64,000 nt of DNA, from positions 1-64,000 of the forward strand of contig NZ_JAERUC010000086.1 of assembly GCF_016745505.1 (NCBI RefSeq), written 5' to 3'. Positions 2,396 through 37,599 of this stretch are shown piece after piece. The translations under genes were made by a program, and so were the position numbers. Origin of the DNA: Streptomyces silvae (lineage in GTDB: Bacteria > Actinomycetota > Actinomycetes > Streptomycetales > Streptomycetaceae). The stretch's first letter is position 1. Every line of letters starts with the position of its first letter. The notes under the pieces were generated by a model. It searched no databases. It was not told where the DNA came from and saw nothing but the letters and a program-made list of their open reading frames with translations.

Positions 2396-3010
2396 TCAGC
2401 TGCCGTCGCGCAGATCGCCGGGCCCGGTGGGCCGGAAGGCGATCCGGTCGAACGTGACCGTGCAGCCGTCACCGGTGGGCGACTGGGCGAGGAAGCCGAT
2501 ACGGGCGGCGGCCCGCTCCTCCTCCGTGCCGAGGGTGAACAGCCGGACGAAGGTCCACCGCTCCCCGTCCGGCGAGGCGTGGAAGGCGAAGGAGCTGCCG
2601 ATGCGGCTGAGCCGCAGCCAGCTGCTGTTCCCCTCCACCACGGCGGAGTTCACGTCGTCGGAGTGGCCCCGGGTGACCACGGTGCAGATCGTGGGGCGTT
2701 CGGGCGAAAGCTCCAGGCAGAGCTTCGCCCACTCCCGCTCCCCCACGTGGAGGTAGAGGACCCCCGCGTCGAAGGCGGCGGCGAAACCGACGCTCACCCG
2801 GGCGATCAGCTGGAAGTCGCCCTCCGGGGCGGGGCCCAGCAGCCGCGGCGCGTCGGACGCGGGTTCCAGGGTGTCGCCGCCGGGCGGGACGAAGCGGTCC
2901 TGCTTCGCCGCCGCCGATCCGGTCAGGACGCCTTCCTCGTACGTCCATCCGCCCTCGGGACCCACCGGCTCCAGGACGAAGGGGAGCTCGGGGATCTGTA
3001 CGGCCGTCAT
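2396..3010 (-). CDS. DUF1349 domain protein
   Basis: This 204-residue protein has no signal peptide and resembles the DUF1349/concanavalin-like family of sugar-associated beta-sandwich proteins. Typical segments are WTYEEGVLTG, AGVLYLHVGEREWAKLCLE and the ASPDGERWTFVRLF strand. Its ATG overlaps the aldehyde dehydrogenase stop (ATGA), so the two are translationally coupled. The context suggests a role in binding or handling a sugar or sugar acid in the same pathway, but the exact function is unknown. Confidence 0.8.
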   Translation of the reverse strand: MTAVQIPELPFVLEPVGPEGGWTYEEGVLTGSAAAKQDRFVPPGGDTLEPASDAPRLLGPAPEGDFQLIARVSVGFAAAFDAGVLYLHVGEREWAKLCLELSPERPTICTVVTRGHSDDVNSAVVEGNSSWLRLSRIGSSFAFHASPDGERWTFVRLFTLGTEEERAAARIGFLAQSPTGDGCTVTFDRIAFRPTGPGDLRDGS

Positions 3011-32537: not shown

Positions 32538-33764
32538 ATGACCGCAATGACCCCCGGCTCGAACATCCCTCTCTCCGCCGCCCGCGTGGCGGTGGACGTC
32601 GCCGCCCCGGTGCGGCTCGACGTCTCGGGCCTGCTGCTCACCGCCGACGGCAAGGTGCGCTCCGACGACGACTTCATCTTCTACAACCAGCCCTCGGGCC
32701 CCGGCGTGACCTACCGCTCGGGCGGCGGGTCGGCGCCCGACGCCATCGTGGTGGACACCACGGCGGTCCCCCCGGGCATCGAGAAGATCGTGGTCACGGC
32801 GAGCCCCGACGCCGCGGGCCAGACCTTCCAGGGCGTCGAGCCCACCGCCACCGTGCGCAACGCGGACGACGGCAGCGCGCTCGCCACCTTCACCCCGCCG
32901 CAGCTGGGCGGCGAGACGGCGCTGGTGGTCATCGAGATCTACCTGCGCAACGGCGCCTGGAAGGCCCGCGCGGTCGGCCAGGGCTATGCGAACGGGCTGG
33001 CGGGCATCGCCACGGACTTCGGCGTCTCGGTGGAGGAGCCCGCCGCGGCGGCGCCCGCCCCGGCGGCCGCTCCGGTCGCACCGCCCGTCGCTCCCCCGGC
33101 ACCGGCGGCCGCTCCCGTGGACCCCCGGATCGCGCCTCCGGCCCCCGCGGCGCCGCCCGCACCGCCCGCACCGCCCGCCGGCTCGGGCAAGATCAATCTC
33201 GACAAGGGCCGGATCAGCCTCCAGAAGAACCAGACCGTGTCCCTGGTCAAGGGCGGCAGGCCGCTGCTCTCGCAGGTCAAGATGGGTCTCGGCTGGGAGC
33301 CCGCGTTCCGCGGCAAGGACATCGACCTCGACGCCTCGGTGATCGCCTTCGGCCCCAACCGCAACCACCTGGACAGCTGCTACTTCGGCAAGCTCTCCAT
33401 CCTCAACGGCGCGATCAAGCACTCCGGCGACAACCTCACGGGCGAGGGCGCGGGCGACGACGAGGTGATCGTCGTGGATCTCGGCCGGATCCCCGCCGAC
33501 GCGACCGGTCTGGTCTTCACGGTCAACTCGTTCACCGGGCAGAAGTTCACCGAGGTCGCCAAGGCCTACTGCCGGCTGATCGACGCGGCCACCGGCGAGG
33601 AGCTGGTCCGCTTCGACCTGACGGGCGCGGAGCCGCAGACCGGCGTGATGATGGCCAAGCTGATCAAGCAGTTCTCCGGCGAGTGGGAGATGACCGGCAT
33701 GGGCGAGTTCGTGAAGTCACGGACCGTCCGCGGCATGGTCAAGCCCGCCGCGAAGGCCCTGTAG
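32538..33764 (+). CDS. Two-domain TerD-family protein
   Basis: The 408-residue protein has an N-terminal TerD-like domain (about residues 8-165; DDDFIFYNQPSGPGVTY, GIEKIVVTAS), a Pro/Ala linker (about 168-215) and a second, complete TerD domain. The second domain contains VKMGLGWEP, DIDLDASVI and DDEVIVVDLGRIP, whose acidic residues bind Ca2+ in TerD. Tellurite-resistance-type proteins of this kind are common in Streptomyces and are linked to stress and development. Start may be ATG 32538 or 32547. Confidence 0.9.
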   Translation: MTAMTPGSNIPLSAARVAVDVAAPVRLDVSGLLLTADGKVRSDDDFIFYNQPSGPGVTYRSGGGSAPDAIVVDTTAVPPGIEKIVVTASPDAAGQTFQGVEPTATVRNADDGSALATFTPPQLGGETALVVIEIYLRNGAWKARAVGQGYANGLAGIATDFGVSVEEPAAAAPAPAAAPVAPPVAPPAPAAAPVDPRIAPPAPAAPPAPPAPPAGSGKINLDKGRISLQKNQTVSLVKGGRPLLSQVKMGLGWEPAFRGKDIDLDASVIAFGPNRNHLDSCYFGKLSILNGAIKHSGDNLTGEGAGDDEVIVVDLGRIPADATGLVFTVNSFTGQKFTEVAKAYCRLIDAATGEELVRFDLTGAEPQTGVMMAKLIKQFSGEWEMTGMGEFVKSRTVRGMVKPAAKAL

Positions 33765-34197: not shown

Positions 34198-35778
34198 TCA
34201 GCGGTTCCAGGGCCAGTCGGCGCTCCTGCCCGCTTCCAGCAGGGGCACCATGCGGAACGCGGCGTCGGAAAGACCCCCGAAGGTGTGGCGGTTATCGCTT
34301 CCGGCCGGCGCGTGCCCGACCCGGTATCCGGCGAGGTTCCAGGTGTAGACGGGCACGGTCGGCGGGACGCCCTCGGTGGCGTCCCCGTAGTAGGTGAACG
34401 ACGCCTGCTCGTCGGTGACGATCAGCACCCGGTCGTGCCCGCGGTAGTGCCGCTGCACGGCCCGCACGGTGTCGGTGCCGCCCAGATTGCCGAAGCGTTC
34501 CAGGATCCTCAGCACGGACTCGCCCCTGCGGTAGGGCACCGCCGAGCTGCTCGTACCGAACTCCACCAGATCGGCGTCGGCGGCCCGCAGCGCCAGGGCG
34601 GCGCCGAAGACGGCCGCGGCGTCGGCCCGGTTCAGCTGGGAGCGGTCCGAGAGCGGCGACCACATCGAGCCGGAGCGGTCGACGAGGACCAGGGTGCGGC
34701 CGGGCAGCGCGGGAACGTTGCCCAGCGAGTGCCCGAGCGCCTGCTCCAGCGGGTAGGCCCACCGCAGCGACGGGGCGTGCTGATAGGCGGCCAGGTAGCG
34801 GAAGGGGAACTGCCGCGAGGCGGCGACGGCCGCCGGGTCGCTGATCCGCGCCGCCACTCCGGCGGCGGCCTCGTCGCCGACACCCGCCTCGTCGAAGTTG
34901 CGCAGGTTACGGACGAGCGCCATCGCTCCCATGGACGGGATCACGGCCTCCCAGGCCGCGGCGTCCATCGGCCCCTGGAGCCAGCCCGCCAGGGCCTCCC
35001 AGGTCATACCGGCCTCGGCGAGCCGGTCCGCGCCGCCGGGTCCGGTGATCACCGCGCGGCGCTCGGAGACCGGCACCGCCATGAGTTCCCGGTGGGCGGT
35101 CAGGGTGCGGTCCGAGCGGGGCGCCACGGCGTCCTCGGGGTGGTGCCTGCGGTCCAGGGCGTACCGGAACAGATCCCCCTGCCAGGGCTTGGCGGGGTCG
35201 GGCGCGGCGTGCACCAGGTTGAGGACGTCGCCGAAGCGGTAGCCCTTGGACGCGGTGTCGTACTTCAGCAGCGCCCGGCCGTTGTAGAGCCGGCGTACGG
35301 CGTCGGCGATACCGCGCTTGACCGGCTTGGGCACCGCGCGGCCGTACCGCGAGGTCCAGTACCCGAGCAGCTCCCCGGGCTCGTCCGCGCGCAGCAGCAC
35401 GGAGTCCACGACCTGCCGGTTGGACGGGCCGTCCACCGCGCCGGCGTCGAGGCGCGCCTTCACGTACTCGGCGGCGCCGACGACGGCCGCCGTGCGCATC
35501 CGCCCCTCGTCACGCAGCCAGCGCAGCAGGCCCGCCGTCCACTCCGGGTCCTCGACGGCGAGCGTCCGCACGAGCGTCGCGAACCGGGTGTCACGCGCCT
35601 CGGAGTCCTCGTGGTGGGTCTCCTGCGACACGAAGTTGGCGACCGCCAGGAGGAAGAGTTCGGAGCGGCTGTCACGGAGATGCCCCACGGCGCCCTGGTG
35701 GTTGCGCGCGGTGTCCCCGGTCGACCGCACGGGCGAGGTGACCCGGGGACGGGTGGAGCGGGTGTTGAAGCGTGCCAT
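34198..35778 (-). CDS. rsr: TROVE-domain protein, bacterial Ro60 (Rsr) orthologue
   Basis: The 526-residue protein has a HEAT-like TROVE ring (about residues 1-350; opening motif NHQGAVGHLRDSRSELFLLAV) followed by a von Willebrand A domain with MIDAS D367-R-S369-G-S371, the GGTDT loop and VTDEQAS. Ro60 rings bind Y RNAs and the ends of misfolded RNAs, and in bacteria work with PNPase or in rRNA maturation under stress. The two Y-RNA-like structures directly upstream on the same strand strongly support this. A GGGGGAA site precedes the ATG. No rtcB is in the window. Confidence 0.93.
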   Translation of the reverse strand: MARFNTRSTRPRVTSPVRSTGDTARNHQGAVGHLRDSRSELFLLAVANFVSQETHHEDSEARDTRFATLVRTLAVEDPEWTAGLLRWLRDEGRMRTAAVVGAAEYVKARLDAGAVDGPSNRQVVDSVLLRADEPGELLGYWTSRYGRAVPKPVKRGIADAVRRLYNGRALLKYDTASKGYRFGDVLNLVHAAPDPAKPWQGDLFRYALDRRHHPEDAVAPRSDRTLTAHRELMAVPVSERRAVITGPGGADRLAEAGMTWEALAGWLQGPMDAAAWEAVIPSMGAMALVRNLRNFDEAGVGDEAAAGVAARISDPAAVAASRQFPFRYLAAYQHAPSLRWAYPLEQALGHSLGNVPALPGRTLVLVDRSGSMWSPLSDRSQLNRADAAAVFGAALALRAADADLVEFGTSSSAVPYRRGESVLRILERFGNLGGTDTVRAVQRHYRGHDRVLIVTDEQASFTYYGDATEGVPPTVPVYTWNLAGYRVGHAPAGSDNRHTFGGLSDAAFRMVPLLEAGRSADWPWNR

Positions 35779-35819
35779 GTGAATTCCCCCGAATTCATGG
35801 GAGAGAGCACAGCGAAGAA

Positions 35820-35959
35820 GGGGTGCCCGAGATCAGGAATCGGCGACGGTGCTAGTCCGATGCTCTATCCATTTGAGCTACCGACCGGAGCCGGGCGGGA
35901 CTCGAACCCGCAACCGTCAGATCCGTAGAAGTATCCGTCGCCTGCGCACCGGGCACCCC
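35820..35959 (-). ncRNA. YrlA-type Y RNA with a circularly permuted tRNA domain
   Basis: By hand folding on the minus strand: 10-bp stem (35959-35950 with 35829-35820), internal loop (GTGCGCA opposite a 12-nt strand ending CCTGATCT) and 8-bp stem GGCGACGG/CCGTCGCC (35942-35935 with 35849-35842). Inside is a tRNA-like body in permuted order: anticodon-stem 3' strand TCTGA (35921-35917), five-base variable loop, T arm GCGGG-TTCGAGT-CCCGC (35911-35895), a 5-bp acceptor-like stem closed by C(UCCG)G (35894-35881), D arm with GG in its loop (35880-35862) and anticodon-stem 5' strand TCGGA (35860-35856). YrlA RNAs mimic tRNA in this way. Transcript ends are not known. Confidence 0.85.
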
Positions 35960-35969
35960 GGCGCTTGTG

Positions 35970-36038
35970 CCTCCCGAGATCAGGTCGGCTGCGGCGTGTT
36001 TCGGGGAAGGAAGTAGCCGCTGCCTTCGCACCGGGAGG
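35970..36038 (-). ncRNA. Second Y-RNA-like hairpin lacking the tRNA domain
   Basis: CCTCCCG/CGGGAGG (36038-36032 with 35976-35970), internal loop GTGCGAA opposite a strand ending CCTGATCT, then a GGCaGCGGC/GCCGCaGCC stem (36024-36016 with 35995-35987, one A-A mismatch) and a 20-nt pyrimidine-rich loop. The internal-loop sequences are almost the same as in the YrlA RNA. It lies upstream and may share its transcript. Many bacteria with Ro60 have two Y RNAs. Confidence 0.7.
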
Positions 36039-36050
36039 TGCATGGCCCTG

Positions 36051-36056
36051 ACTCTA
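36051..36056 (-). promoter_or_regulatory. Possible -10 box for the Y-RNA unit
   Basis: TAGAGT on the minus strand would start transcription near 36043, just before the first Y-RNA-like hairpin. No matching TTGAC-type -35 is visible. Confidence 0.4.
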
Positions 36057-36065
36057 GGAGGTCGA

Positions 36066-36082
36066 CCTCGCGGCGCGCGAGG
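36066..36082 (-). terminator. Hairpin after the PhoX gene
   Basis: CCTCGCG and CGCGAGG form a perfect 7-bp stem with a 3-nt loop between the PhoX stop and the Y-RNA region. Confidence 0.55.
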
Positions 36083-36117
36083 CGTTTTGCCCCTCCCGCG
36101 CACCGCGCATGCCGGTG

Positions 36118-37599
36118 TCAGCGCTTGTCCGGCTGGCGCTTCCACGGGCCGGTGATGGCGAGCATGATGCCCGGGTTCTGGATGTTGGCGAACAGCGTCC
36201 TGCCGTCCGGGGAGAAGGTGACCCCGGCGATCTCGCTGTAGGAGGGGTCGTCCTCCGTACCGGCGTTGAGGTCGTTGCGCGCGATCGGGTACGTACGGCC
36301 GCTGTCGGTCGCCCCGAAGAGGTGCTGGATCCCGTTGCCGTCCTCGGAGATGACGATGCCACCGTAGGGCGAGACGGTGATGTTGTCCGGTCCGTCGAAA
36401 GCGCCGTCCACGGAGGGGTCCGCGTTGACCCCCAGGAGGACCTTCAGCGTGATGGTGCGGCGCTTGGGGTCGTAGAACCAGACCTGGCCGTCGTGGGCGA
36501 CGGGGCTCTCGTCCCGGGCGAACGAGGAGACGAAGTAGGCGCCGCCGTCGCCCCACCACATACCTTCGAGCTTGCGGGCGCGGGTGACCTCGCCGTCGGC
36601 GAACTGCTTGCGCACGGACACGGTCTTCGCGTCGCGGTCGGGGACGTCGACCCAGTCCACGCCGTAGACGGTACCGATCTCAGTGGCGCGGGACAGGTCG
36701 TCGACGAACCGGCCCTTCTTGTCGAAGCACTTGGTGGCCTGGAGGACGCCGGCGTCGTCGGCGAGGGTGCGCAGCTTTCCGCGGCCGTGCTTGAAGCCGT
36801 GCGGCGGGACCCAGCGGTAGAGGAGGCCGTTGGGGCCGGACGCGTCCTCGGTCAGGTAGGCGTGTCCCTGCTTGGGGTCGATGACGACGGCCTCGTGGGC
36901 GTACCGGCCGAACGCCTTGACGGGACGCGGGTCGCGGTTGGCCCGCTTGTCGTACGGGTCGACCTCGAAGACGTAGCCGTGGTCCTTGAGCAGACCGTTC
37001 TTGCCTGCCTTGTCCTCAGTCTCCTCGCAGGTGAGCCAGGTGCCCCACGCGGTGCTGCCGCCGGCGCAGTTGGTCGACGTGCCCGCGATGCCGACCCACT
37101 CGGCGGTGCGGCCGTCGCGGCGGGTCTCGATGACGGTGCAGCCGCCGGCCGCGACGGGGTCATAGACGAGTCCCTCGGTCAGCGGAACCGGGAACTCCCA
37201 GCCGGCCCGGGTGCCGCTCAGCTCGTGGTTGTTGACCAGGAGGGTGACGCCACGGGGGCCCTCGAAAGCGGCCGTGCCATCGTGGTTGGAGGGTGTGTAC
37301 TCGCCGCTCTCCAGCCTGGTGACACCGCTGTGGGTGACGATCCGGTACGAGAATCCGGCGGGCAGCGCGAGGATGCCCTCCGGGTCGTCGATCAGCGGGC
37401 CGTAGCCAAGCTCCTTGCCGTGGCCCCTATCGTCGTCGTGACCGTGACCGTGACCGTGCCCGTGCCCGTGGCCGTGTCGCGCGTCGTCGGCCGCCAGGGC
37501 GCCCGGGGCCGTGGCCAGTGCGCCGACGGCACCGGTCAGGGCGATTCCGGCGCCGGTGAGGGCGGACTGTCTGCTGAATTCCCTGCGTGTGATCGACAT
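36118..37599 (-). CDS. PhoX-family (DUF839) secreted phosphatase-like protein
   Basis: The 493-residue protein has a twin-arginine signal (TRREFSRQSALTGAGIAL). After cleavage comes a His-Gly repeat (HGHGHGHGHGHGH) and then a DUF839 propeller: GTSTNCAGGSTAWGTWLTCEE, AHEAVVIDPKQGHAYLTEDA, GVTFSPDGRTLFANIQNPG. PhoX enzymes are Ca2+/Fe3+-dependent alkaline phosphatases. The His-rich stretch may add metal binding. AGGAG lies 7 nt before ATG 37599. Two 11-bp Pho-box-like repeats lie upstream, which suggests PhoP control. Confidence 0.88.
   Translation of the reverse strand: MSITRREFSRQSALTGAGIALTGAVGALATAPGALAADDARHGHGHGHGHGHGHDDDRGHGKELGYGPLIDDPEGILALPAGFSYRIVTHSGVTRLESGEYTPSNHDGTAAFEGPRGVTLLVNNHELSGTRAGWEFPVPLTEGLVYDPVAAGGCTVIETRRDGRTAEWVGIAGTSTNCAGGSTAWGTWLTCEETEDKAGKNGLLKDHGYVFEVDPYDKRANRDPRPVKAFGRYAHEAVVIDPKQGHAYLTEDASGPNGLLYRWVPPHGFKHGRGKLRTLADDAGVLQATKCFDKKGRFVDDLSRATEIGTVYGVDWVDVPDRDAKTVSVRKQFADGEVTRARKLEGMWWGDGGAYFVSSFARDESPVAHDGQVWFYDPKRRTITLKVLLGVNADPSVDGAFDGPDNITVSPYGGIVISEDGNGIQHLFGATDSGRTYPIARNDLNAGTEDDPSYSEIAGVTFSPDGRTLFANIQNPGIMLAITGPWKRQPDKR

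Follow-up and report, generated by a model that had tools for sequence, protein, structure and literature searches.

In the closest described systems, as presented in the excerpts of the literature available to us, a Y RNA tethers the bacterial Ro60 protein (Rsr) to PNPase, directing Rsr to structured RNA, and Y RNAs block the entry of misfolded RNA into Ro60 (PMC7790460, PMC8394870, PMC6340977). The structure of Salmonella YrlA is PDB 6CU1, and dihydrouridine and pseudouridine occur in YrlA D and T loops (PMC8394870). The Salmonella rsr-yrlBA-rtcBA operon holds a second Y RNA, YrlB, beside YrlA (PMC7790460, PMC9879122); in the literature searched, and as far as the excerpts go, it was in Salmonella papers that YrlB appeared as a named second Y RNA. 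YrlA is also given as a predicted RNA in mycobacteria, and the TROVE domain and Streptomyces appear together in one mycobacterial review, both according to excerpts of the sources. No paper in the literature searched combined Streptomyces, Y RNA and Ro60, and the same literature, with the main YrlA papers outside it, yielded no mention of class II heads or of clades that have headless RNAs only.

The locus described here lies on the minus strand of a 64-kb stretch of DNA (the window). Sequence reading places a YrlA-type Y RNA at 35959-35820, its 3' end 41 bases before the start of the TROVE/Ro60 gene (Table 1). It resembles the YrlA family (RF02553; Salmonella YrlA) in its linkage to Ro60, its basal stem, its permuted T arm, its acceptor-like hairpin and its D arm. 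It differs in that the match stays below the Rfam gathering cut-off, as in all 150 genomes of the genus that were searched with RF02553 (0/150 exceed that score), in that a headless twin adjoins it and in that the heads of relatives can be of a long-variable-arm class. By description, in the excerpts available, the twin is like Salmonella YrlB in being a second Y RNA beside YrlA; the Salmonella Y RNAs come after rsr, whereas those of the window come before Ro60. Because the tRNA-mimic nature of YrlA has already been published, as the original prediction itself recognized, the locus does not represent a new kind, and this YrlA is a new but ordinary member of a published kind of RNA. What is new beyond it is the short headless RNA, an Ro60 clade that has only the headless RNA, long-variable-arm heads and Y RNA-like loci between metK and priA.

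Table 1. Features of the Y RNA and Ro60 locus, in window positions
Feature	Position	Strand	Evidence
YrlA-type Y RNA, probable RNA length ~140 nt	35820..35959	-	RF02553 56.4 bits; model R2 151.2 bits (R2 built partly from the same sequence); covariation
Outer stem GGGGUGCCCG/CGGGCACCCC	35959-35950 with 35829-35820	-	Sequence
Inner stem GGCGACGG/CCGUCGCC	35942-35935 with 35849-35842	-	Sequence
5' strand of the probable Ro60-binding foot: outer stem, internal loop GGUGCGCA, inner stem GGCGACGG	35935..35959	-	Sequence
3' strand of the probable Ro60-binding foot (CCGUCGCC ... CUGAUCUCGGGCACCCC)	35820..35849	-	Sequence; conservation in A2
Anticodon-like stem, 3' half UCUGA	35917..35921	-	Two-sided changes in 5/5 pairs
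Anticodon-like stem, 5' half UCGGA	35856..35860	-	Pairs with 35921-35917
T arm, loop UUCGAGU	35895..35911	-	TTC and A58 in 36/36
Acceptor-like hairpin, 5-bp, closed by C(UCCG)G	35881..35894	-	Sequence; two-sided changes in 5/7 aligned pairs
D arm after U8-A9 linker	35862..35878	-	U8 36/36; D-loop GG 35/36
Short Y RNA without tRNA-like head, 71 nt	35970..36040	-	R1 86.0 bits (built partly from it); R2 42.9 bits; stem pairing maintained in relatives
TAGAGT, candidate -10 box of the array promoter	36051..36056	-	Motif count across relatives
Ro60 (TROVE) gene, 526 aa	34198..35778	-	PF05731; PDB chain 9l5y_A E 6.9e-27

YrlA carries a circularly permuted tRNA

The original prediction read this element as a YrlA RNA, and that identity stands: sequence, strand, coordinates and arm order, T then D, are as it gave them, and both enclosing stems (10 and 8 bp) and the C(UCCG)G closure of the tRNA body are present, together with a 5-nt variable loop and a single base 26. 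It overlooked the headless Y RNA that lies 10 bases upstream. The element is like a tRNA gene in its T and D arms, U8, D-loop GG, 5-nt variable loop and T-loop A58, but its halves are reversed, its acceptor is closed by a tetraloop and a Y stem replaces the anticodon loop. An ordinary tRNA gene was rejected as its identity on account of the T-then-D order, the tetraloop-closed acceptor and zero ARAGORN calls.

The covariance-model search that had been proposed gave a divided answer. RF02553 matched 35941-35840 over all 114 model positions (E 3.5e-12, at a loose threshold in a 501-base search), but the score (Table 1) falls under the Rfam gathering score of 69 bits. At the gathering cut-off Rfam had zero matches in the whole window, and ARAGORN found zero tRNA there; the element was missed by automated tools, as had been thought possible. 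The cut-off is a blind spot, as no YrlA match in the 150 genus genomes reaches it. With E values up to 10, no Y RNA family other than YrlA matched the stretch, and the short RNA had no Rfam match of its own. RF02553 also scores tandem tRNA-Asn genes at ~44 bits, and weak YrlA matches therefore need a tRNA check: in the genus search, matches below ~45 bits were a mix of Y RNAs and tandem tRNAs. Of 30 RF02553 loci that were fetched, three (L025, L026 and L028) were tandem tRNA-Asn genes and 27 had an adjoining Ro60 match, in L018 as fragments only. Searches across more than 40 genomes used stricter filters, with weak matches lost.

We aligned 36 YrlA sequences (A2), taken from 89 TROVE loci by a typed pattern with T and D arms fitting class I; the conservation of these arms in A2 is thus partly a matter of choice, which leaves stem covariation and the swapping of halves unaffected. 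Without a supplied structure, RNAalifold recovered the basal, inner and anticodon-like stems, the T arm, the acceptor hairpin and the D arm. Compensatory change in relatives, which the original prediction had named as a check, was found in 17/38 pairs as two-sided changes. Paired cells made up 98.9% of the alignment, against 92.1% in column shuffles and 31-50% with the structure slid, and two-sided cells numbered 82, against a shuffle mean of 16.9; on none of five measures did any of 500 column shuffles attain the observed value. The basal stem (helix 1), which joins the 5' and 3' ends, had 100% of cells paired and two-sided changes in 3/11 pairs, whereas the D arm never varies in A2 and is uninformative either way on covariation. 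The claim of a YrlA fold rests on this comparative evidence and not on single-sequence folding, in which YrlA did only modestly better than shuffles (z -1.71; equalled by 8/200) and took a minimum-energy form other than the full tRNA fold; the other single-sequence fold tested was likewise weak evidence (z -1.84; 12/200 shuffles as good).

The tertiary signs of tRNA are present in A2, with T-loop UUC and A58 as well as the 5-nt variable loop in 36/36 rows (U8 and D-loop GG in Table 1). Once the two halves were re-joined in tRNA order, ARAGORN called a tRNA in 36/36 cases with either inserted loop, compared with 2/36 full-length sequences in native order and 0/36 for the halves in native order with the same loop. 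Controls gave 0/720 calls for shuffles and 778/1260 for halves swapped between loci. The amino-acid label of the re-joined constructs depends on the inserted loop and is meaningless. The YrlA head is a circularly permuted tRNA, as had been claimed, and the claim holds quantitatively.

The window has a simpler array than many relatives. By model R2, 45/89 TROVE loci hold two YrlA matches (for example, L067, L072 and L092), usually in the order YrlA, short RNA, YrlA, Ro60; the first YrlA copy is absent from the window.

A short headless Y RNA shares the foot

The short RNA has the same foot as its neighbour (CCTCCCGGTGCG...CTGATCTCGGGAGG) and lacks both T and D arms. We built covariance model R1 from an alignment of short RNAs (A1) and model R2 from A2. 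A1 has 67 rows: a typed pattern matched short RNAs in 71/89 loci, 69 of them distinct, and the paralog rows L062 and L065 were dropped. Each model matches the other RNA in the window (R1 on YrlA, 39.7 bits; R2 on the short RNA, 42.9 bits), so the foot is common to both, and CCGGTGCG in its 5' strand, invariant across the 36 A2 rows, is the same motif in the short RNA. Conservation and linkage to Ro60 make the foot, consisting of the terminal stem, the internal loop GGUGCG.../...UGAUCU and the second stem, probably the Ro60-binding site.

Within A1 the short RNA covaries weakly. Paired cells reached 98.5% over 15 pairs, against 97.1% in shuffles and 43-53% with the structure slid, and two-sided changes fell in 3 pairs and 15 cells, values reached by 16/500 and 0/500 shuffles, respectively; the number of further pair types was reached by 247/500. 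The terminal stem (stem I) hardly varies in A1 and has no two-sided pair. In a wider set of 24 relatives, examined without a shuffle control, it has 15 different sequences, each pairing over at least 6 bp. The A1 loop contains the invariant bases TNCTTC.

By R1, the short RNA is present in 86/89 genus Ro60 loci, three of them (L085, L091 and L130) with stubs of 33-34 nt, and was not found in L109, L112 and L135; by R2, a YrlA of at least 125 nt is present in 73/89. These counts are table readings by match length in which the sequences used for building match by construction, and a 31-bit second match in L126 was left uncounted. Among the best 80 named Ro60 loci, some from genomes that overlap the genus set, 69 have a complete short RNA by R1 and 4 a stub, with no match in the other 7.

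Y RNAs are linked to Ro60

The Ro60 gene that had been predicted next door is the downstream gene. Its product scores 45.2 bits against PF05731 (cut-off 23), with the best stretch at profile positions 289-351 of 442, and phmmer aligned residues 24-210 and 250-518 with the "TROVE domain-containing protein" of PDB chain 9l5y_A; its AlphaFold model (mean pLDDT 53.9) was too poor for a fold search to bear on the HEAT ring with vWA closure that is typical of Ro60. The best 80 protein matches from named genomes, with identity up to 90%, are all from Streptomyces except one, from [Kitasatospora] papulosa. A TerD-domain gene (32538-33764, plus strand) is convergent to Ro60 and was matched in 48/80 named loci, or 43/70 of those with long flanks.

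TROVE genes occur in 81/150 genus genomes, with 89 matches including that of the window. TROVE and R1 matches occur together in 77 genomes, TROVE alone in 4 (G044, G059, G081 and G140), R1 alone in 2 (G066 and G125) and neither in 67 (Fisher p 5e-35, relatedness ignored); in the two R1-only genomes the adjoining Ro60 gene is a remnant of which only fragments matched. Among 296 genomes of the class, 37 have TROVE and 22 have R1 matches, all 22 within the 37, leaving 15 TROVE genomes without an R1 match. In a family sample, R1 matched in 82/150 genomes and 9/17 genera.

The first Y RNA is preceded by a -10-like box in 58/86 loci, compared with 3/344 control windows and 84/1720 shuffles, which makes the box in the window a candidate promoter element of the array. 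A promoter and terminator consensus scan of 35750-36200 returned nothing, with no terminator-like site. Separately, GAATTCGGGGGAATTC at 35781-35796 stands directly before the Ro60 start codon and covers the probable ribosome-binding site; its core AATTCGGGGG occurs no more than 30 bases from the Ro60 start in 60/89 loci.

Heads vary and can be absent

In 12 loci (L085, L091, L099, L102, L104, L110, L118, L125, L130, L131, L137 and L140) the T arm lies farther from the foot, and an extra hairpin separates the anticodon strand from the T stem, its letters differing and its pairing the same (for example, L085, L102 and L125). All 12 gave tRNA calls in at least some re-joined constructs, a series run without a shuffle control. 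Judged by sequence, the YrlA heads of these loci mimic tRNAs of the long-variable-arm (class II) type; we take their D arm to have the look of tRNA-Leu. The same D arm occurs in four more loci with a short hairpin and two with none. On an Ro60 tree of 68 loci, this D-arm type (18 loci) requires 13 changes (mean over shuffles 16.1; 14/500 shuffles as low), of which supported branches force at least 7; the 12 long-arm loci require 9 changes, at least 5 of them forced, against a shuffled mean of 11.4. Loci without a second YrlA were scored as class I in the long-arm count and left out of the D-arm count. Heads and Ro60 travel together only loosely, a looseness to which recombination, gene-tree error or both may contribute.

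Elsewhere the head is missing altogether. In 15/89 loci the short RNA is present with no R2 match of YrlA length, and setting aside L086, L113 and L146, which hold a 111-113-nt element with a T-arm-like hairpin, leaves 12. Eleven of these form one branch of the Ro60 tree (SH-aLRT 88; for the ten of them with a paralog Ro60 that is 66-72% identical to that of the window, 93), both values being under the tool's mark of 95. By a quick tree method the headless-only branch is nested among loci with both RNAs, with two changes and 0/500 shuffles as low; the tree omits the broken Ro60 of L109, and its 'both' group also includes L086, L113 and L146 as well as L112 and L135, the latter two having YrlA without a short RNA. 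The twelfth locus (G123) stands apart in the tree and has a YrlA-like match on another contig.

Four genomes have only the paralog Ro60 among their TROVE matches. Whole-genome searches with R2 found no tRNA-headed Y RNA in G038, G147 and G143. The match in G038 is a tandem tRNA-Asn, confirmed by sequence reading, and G147 and G143 have one 37.2-bit match each, at model positions 21-116, interpreted as tandem tRNA since other genomes show this match too and it was read so in G058 (37.6 bits); in G143, R2 also matches the short RNA itself. G041 has the same tandem-tRNA-type match and a weak candidate (30.2 bits, E 0.064). That candidate, at L300 ~1727-1837 (G041:C185:14226-14336), shows T-then-D order and matching anticodon-like halves, with almost no acceptor and no visible Ro60 foot. 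Chen 2014 is said to have reported that at least one Y RNA per species bears a tRNA-like domain.

Y RNA-like loci away from Ro60 and in phages

R1 also found 11 matches of 93-103 nt away from TROVE genes in the genus set. Ten lie between metK and priA (L171-L180, around position 3000; both genes were identified by NCBIfam in L174, and priA also in L178) and one at another site. Within 3 kb of the metK-priA loci there is no Ro60 match, although each of the 11 genomes carries TROVE in another place. An R2 match of YrlA length stands beside 5 of the 11 (L170-L173 and L176), four of these at metK-priA. Neither R1 nor R2 finds such an extra copy in the source genome of the window, where the only further R2 match (37.2 bits) is of the tandem-tRNA type.

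Searching with the Ro60 protein by tblastn matched 81 phage records. In all four phage loci examined, R2 matches lie upstream of the Ro-like gene (best scores 48.1, 50.6, 78.7 and 53.0 bits), and R1 matches are weak, at 29.9 bits at best. In phage Kela an RNA ligase gene stands between the YrlA-like RNA and the Ro-like gene, and in phage BRock a gene annotated as a stress protein lies downstream of the Ro-like gene. An annotated tRNA-Arg of Gordonia phage VanLee (L277 2204-2275) falls inside the 78.7-bit R2 match at 2201-2342, as if mislabelled in the way that the original prediction had thought possible, and an annotated tRNA-Ser of Streptomyces phage Alone3 (2274-2347) falls inside a weak 28.5-bit match (L276 2268-2415). 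Both annotations lie inside YrlA-model matches and have the look of Y RNAs filed in error; one phage YrlA copy, at least, seems to be recorded as a tRNA gene.

A proposed pairing of two Y RNAs with one Ro60

The comparison establishes the conserved structure of both RNAs, the permutation, the common foot and the linkage to Ro60. From this we infer that both RNAs are transcribed and bound by Ro60, and we think it likely that one Ro60 ring serves two Y RNAs through the common foot, with YrlA tethering an effector and gating the ring and the short RNA only gating it. In YrlA, the foot would run into the opened anticodon stem of the circularly permuted tRNA, and the head would take up an L-shaped tRNA body that, with its acceptor end sealed by a tetraloop, would be neither charged nor decoding. 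By analogy with Deinococcus and Salmonella, this head may be an effector platform that tethers Ro60 to PNPase; the likeness to the Deinococcus Y RNA/Rsr/PNPase complex (RYPER), drawn by description from excerpts, lies in an Ro60 whose Y RNA has been proposed to serve as tether and gate. The head may also be modified by the enzymes that act on tRNA D and T loops. The short RNA, being foot and plain loop, is proposed to occupy Ro60 and gate RNA entry with no tethering, and the ratio of YrlA to short RNA would then set the share of Ro60 coupled to the nuclease.

With the array just upstream of the Ro60 start, the Y RNAs could act in cis as an mRNA leader: Ro60 would bind the feet and limit its own synthesis, and free Y RNAs would be by-products of processing. 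The 41-base spacing, the candidate promoter ahead of the array and the lack of a terminator-like site in 35750-36200 suit such a leader, but a tRNA-shaped head is needless for one, and related RNAs stand without an Ro60 match within 3 kb at metK-priA in 10 genomes and at another site in one more, so that we regard this arrangement as unlikely to be the main one. We give about the same small weight to a head that, stabilized by Ro60, would be a decoy for tRNA-cutting nucleases or tRNA-modifying enzymes rather than a binder of PNPase. Salmonella YrlA has been suggested to act as such a decoy (PMC7790460), different nucleases could be served by heads of two tRNA classes, and a Ro-like gene accompanied by such RNAs occurs in two phages rich in tRNA genes; however, Salmonella YrlA fragments went undetected under a tRNA-cutting condition, which the authors read as YrlA not being a substrate (PMC7790460, in the excerpt available), and PNPase association is the role demonstrated elsewhere, again according to excerpts.

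It is improbable that the short RNA is a functionless, decayed YrlA that lost its head, as the common foot and the stubs in three loci might suggest, given that it is commoner than YrlA (86 versus 73 of 89 loci), has invariant bases in its loop, keeps its terminal stem paired over 15 foot sequences in 24 relatives and is the one RNA retained in one Ro60 clade. Finally, although the permuted models do match true tandem tRNA-Asn genes (RF02553 at ~44 bits in the three loci above; in G038, R2 at 47.1 bits), the remnant of a degenerate tRNA or of a tandem pair, in which one tRNA's T arm precedes the D arm of its neighbour, has next to no chance of being correct and is refuted by the covariation of the outer and anticodon stems: ARAGORN finds no tRNA in the window, a closed acceptor hairpin joins the arms, two outer stems enclose the element, and the anticodon halves, whose pairing had been predicted, pair across the whole of it with two-sided changes in all five pairs, and do so at 5/5 pairs in 28/36 cases with their own halves against 211/1260 with swapped ones.

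Returning to one Ro60 ring with two Y RNAs, a broader view is more tentative, and we hold it at somewhat less than even: actinobacterial Y RNAs may be modular, with a constant Ro60-binding foot and exchangeable heads, be it a class I mimic, a class II-type mimic with a long variable arm, other loops in the ~100-nt metK-priA RNAs or none. A separate Ro60 clade would then work with a headless RNA alone, tRNA mimicry being dispensable there, and head exchange, not Ro60 divergence, would set the partner of Ro60. A division of labour between foot and head is hard to test where a single Y RNA exists. A headed and a headless RNA beside one Ro60, with a sister clade that is headless-only, would offer natural controls for what the tRNA mimic contributes, namely tethering beyond gating.
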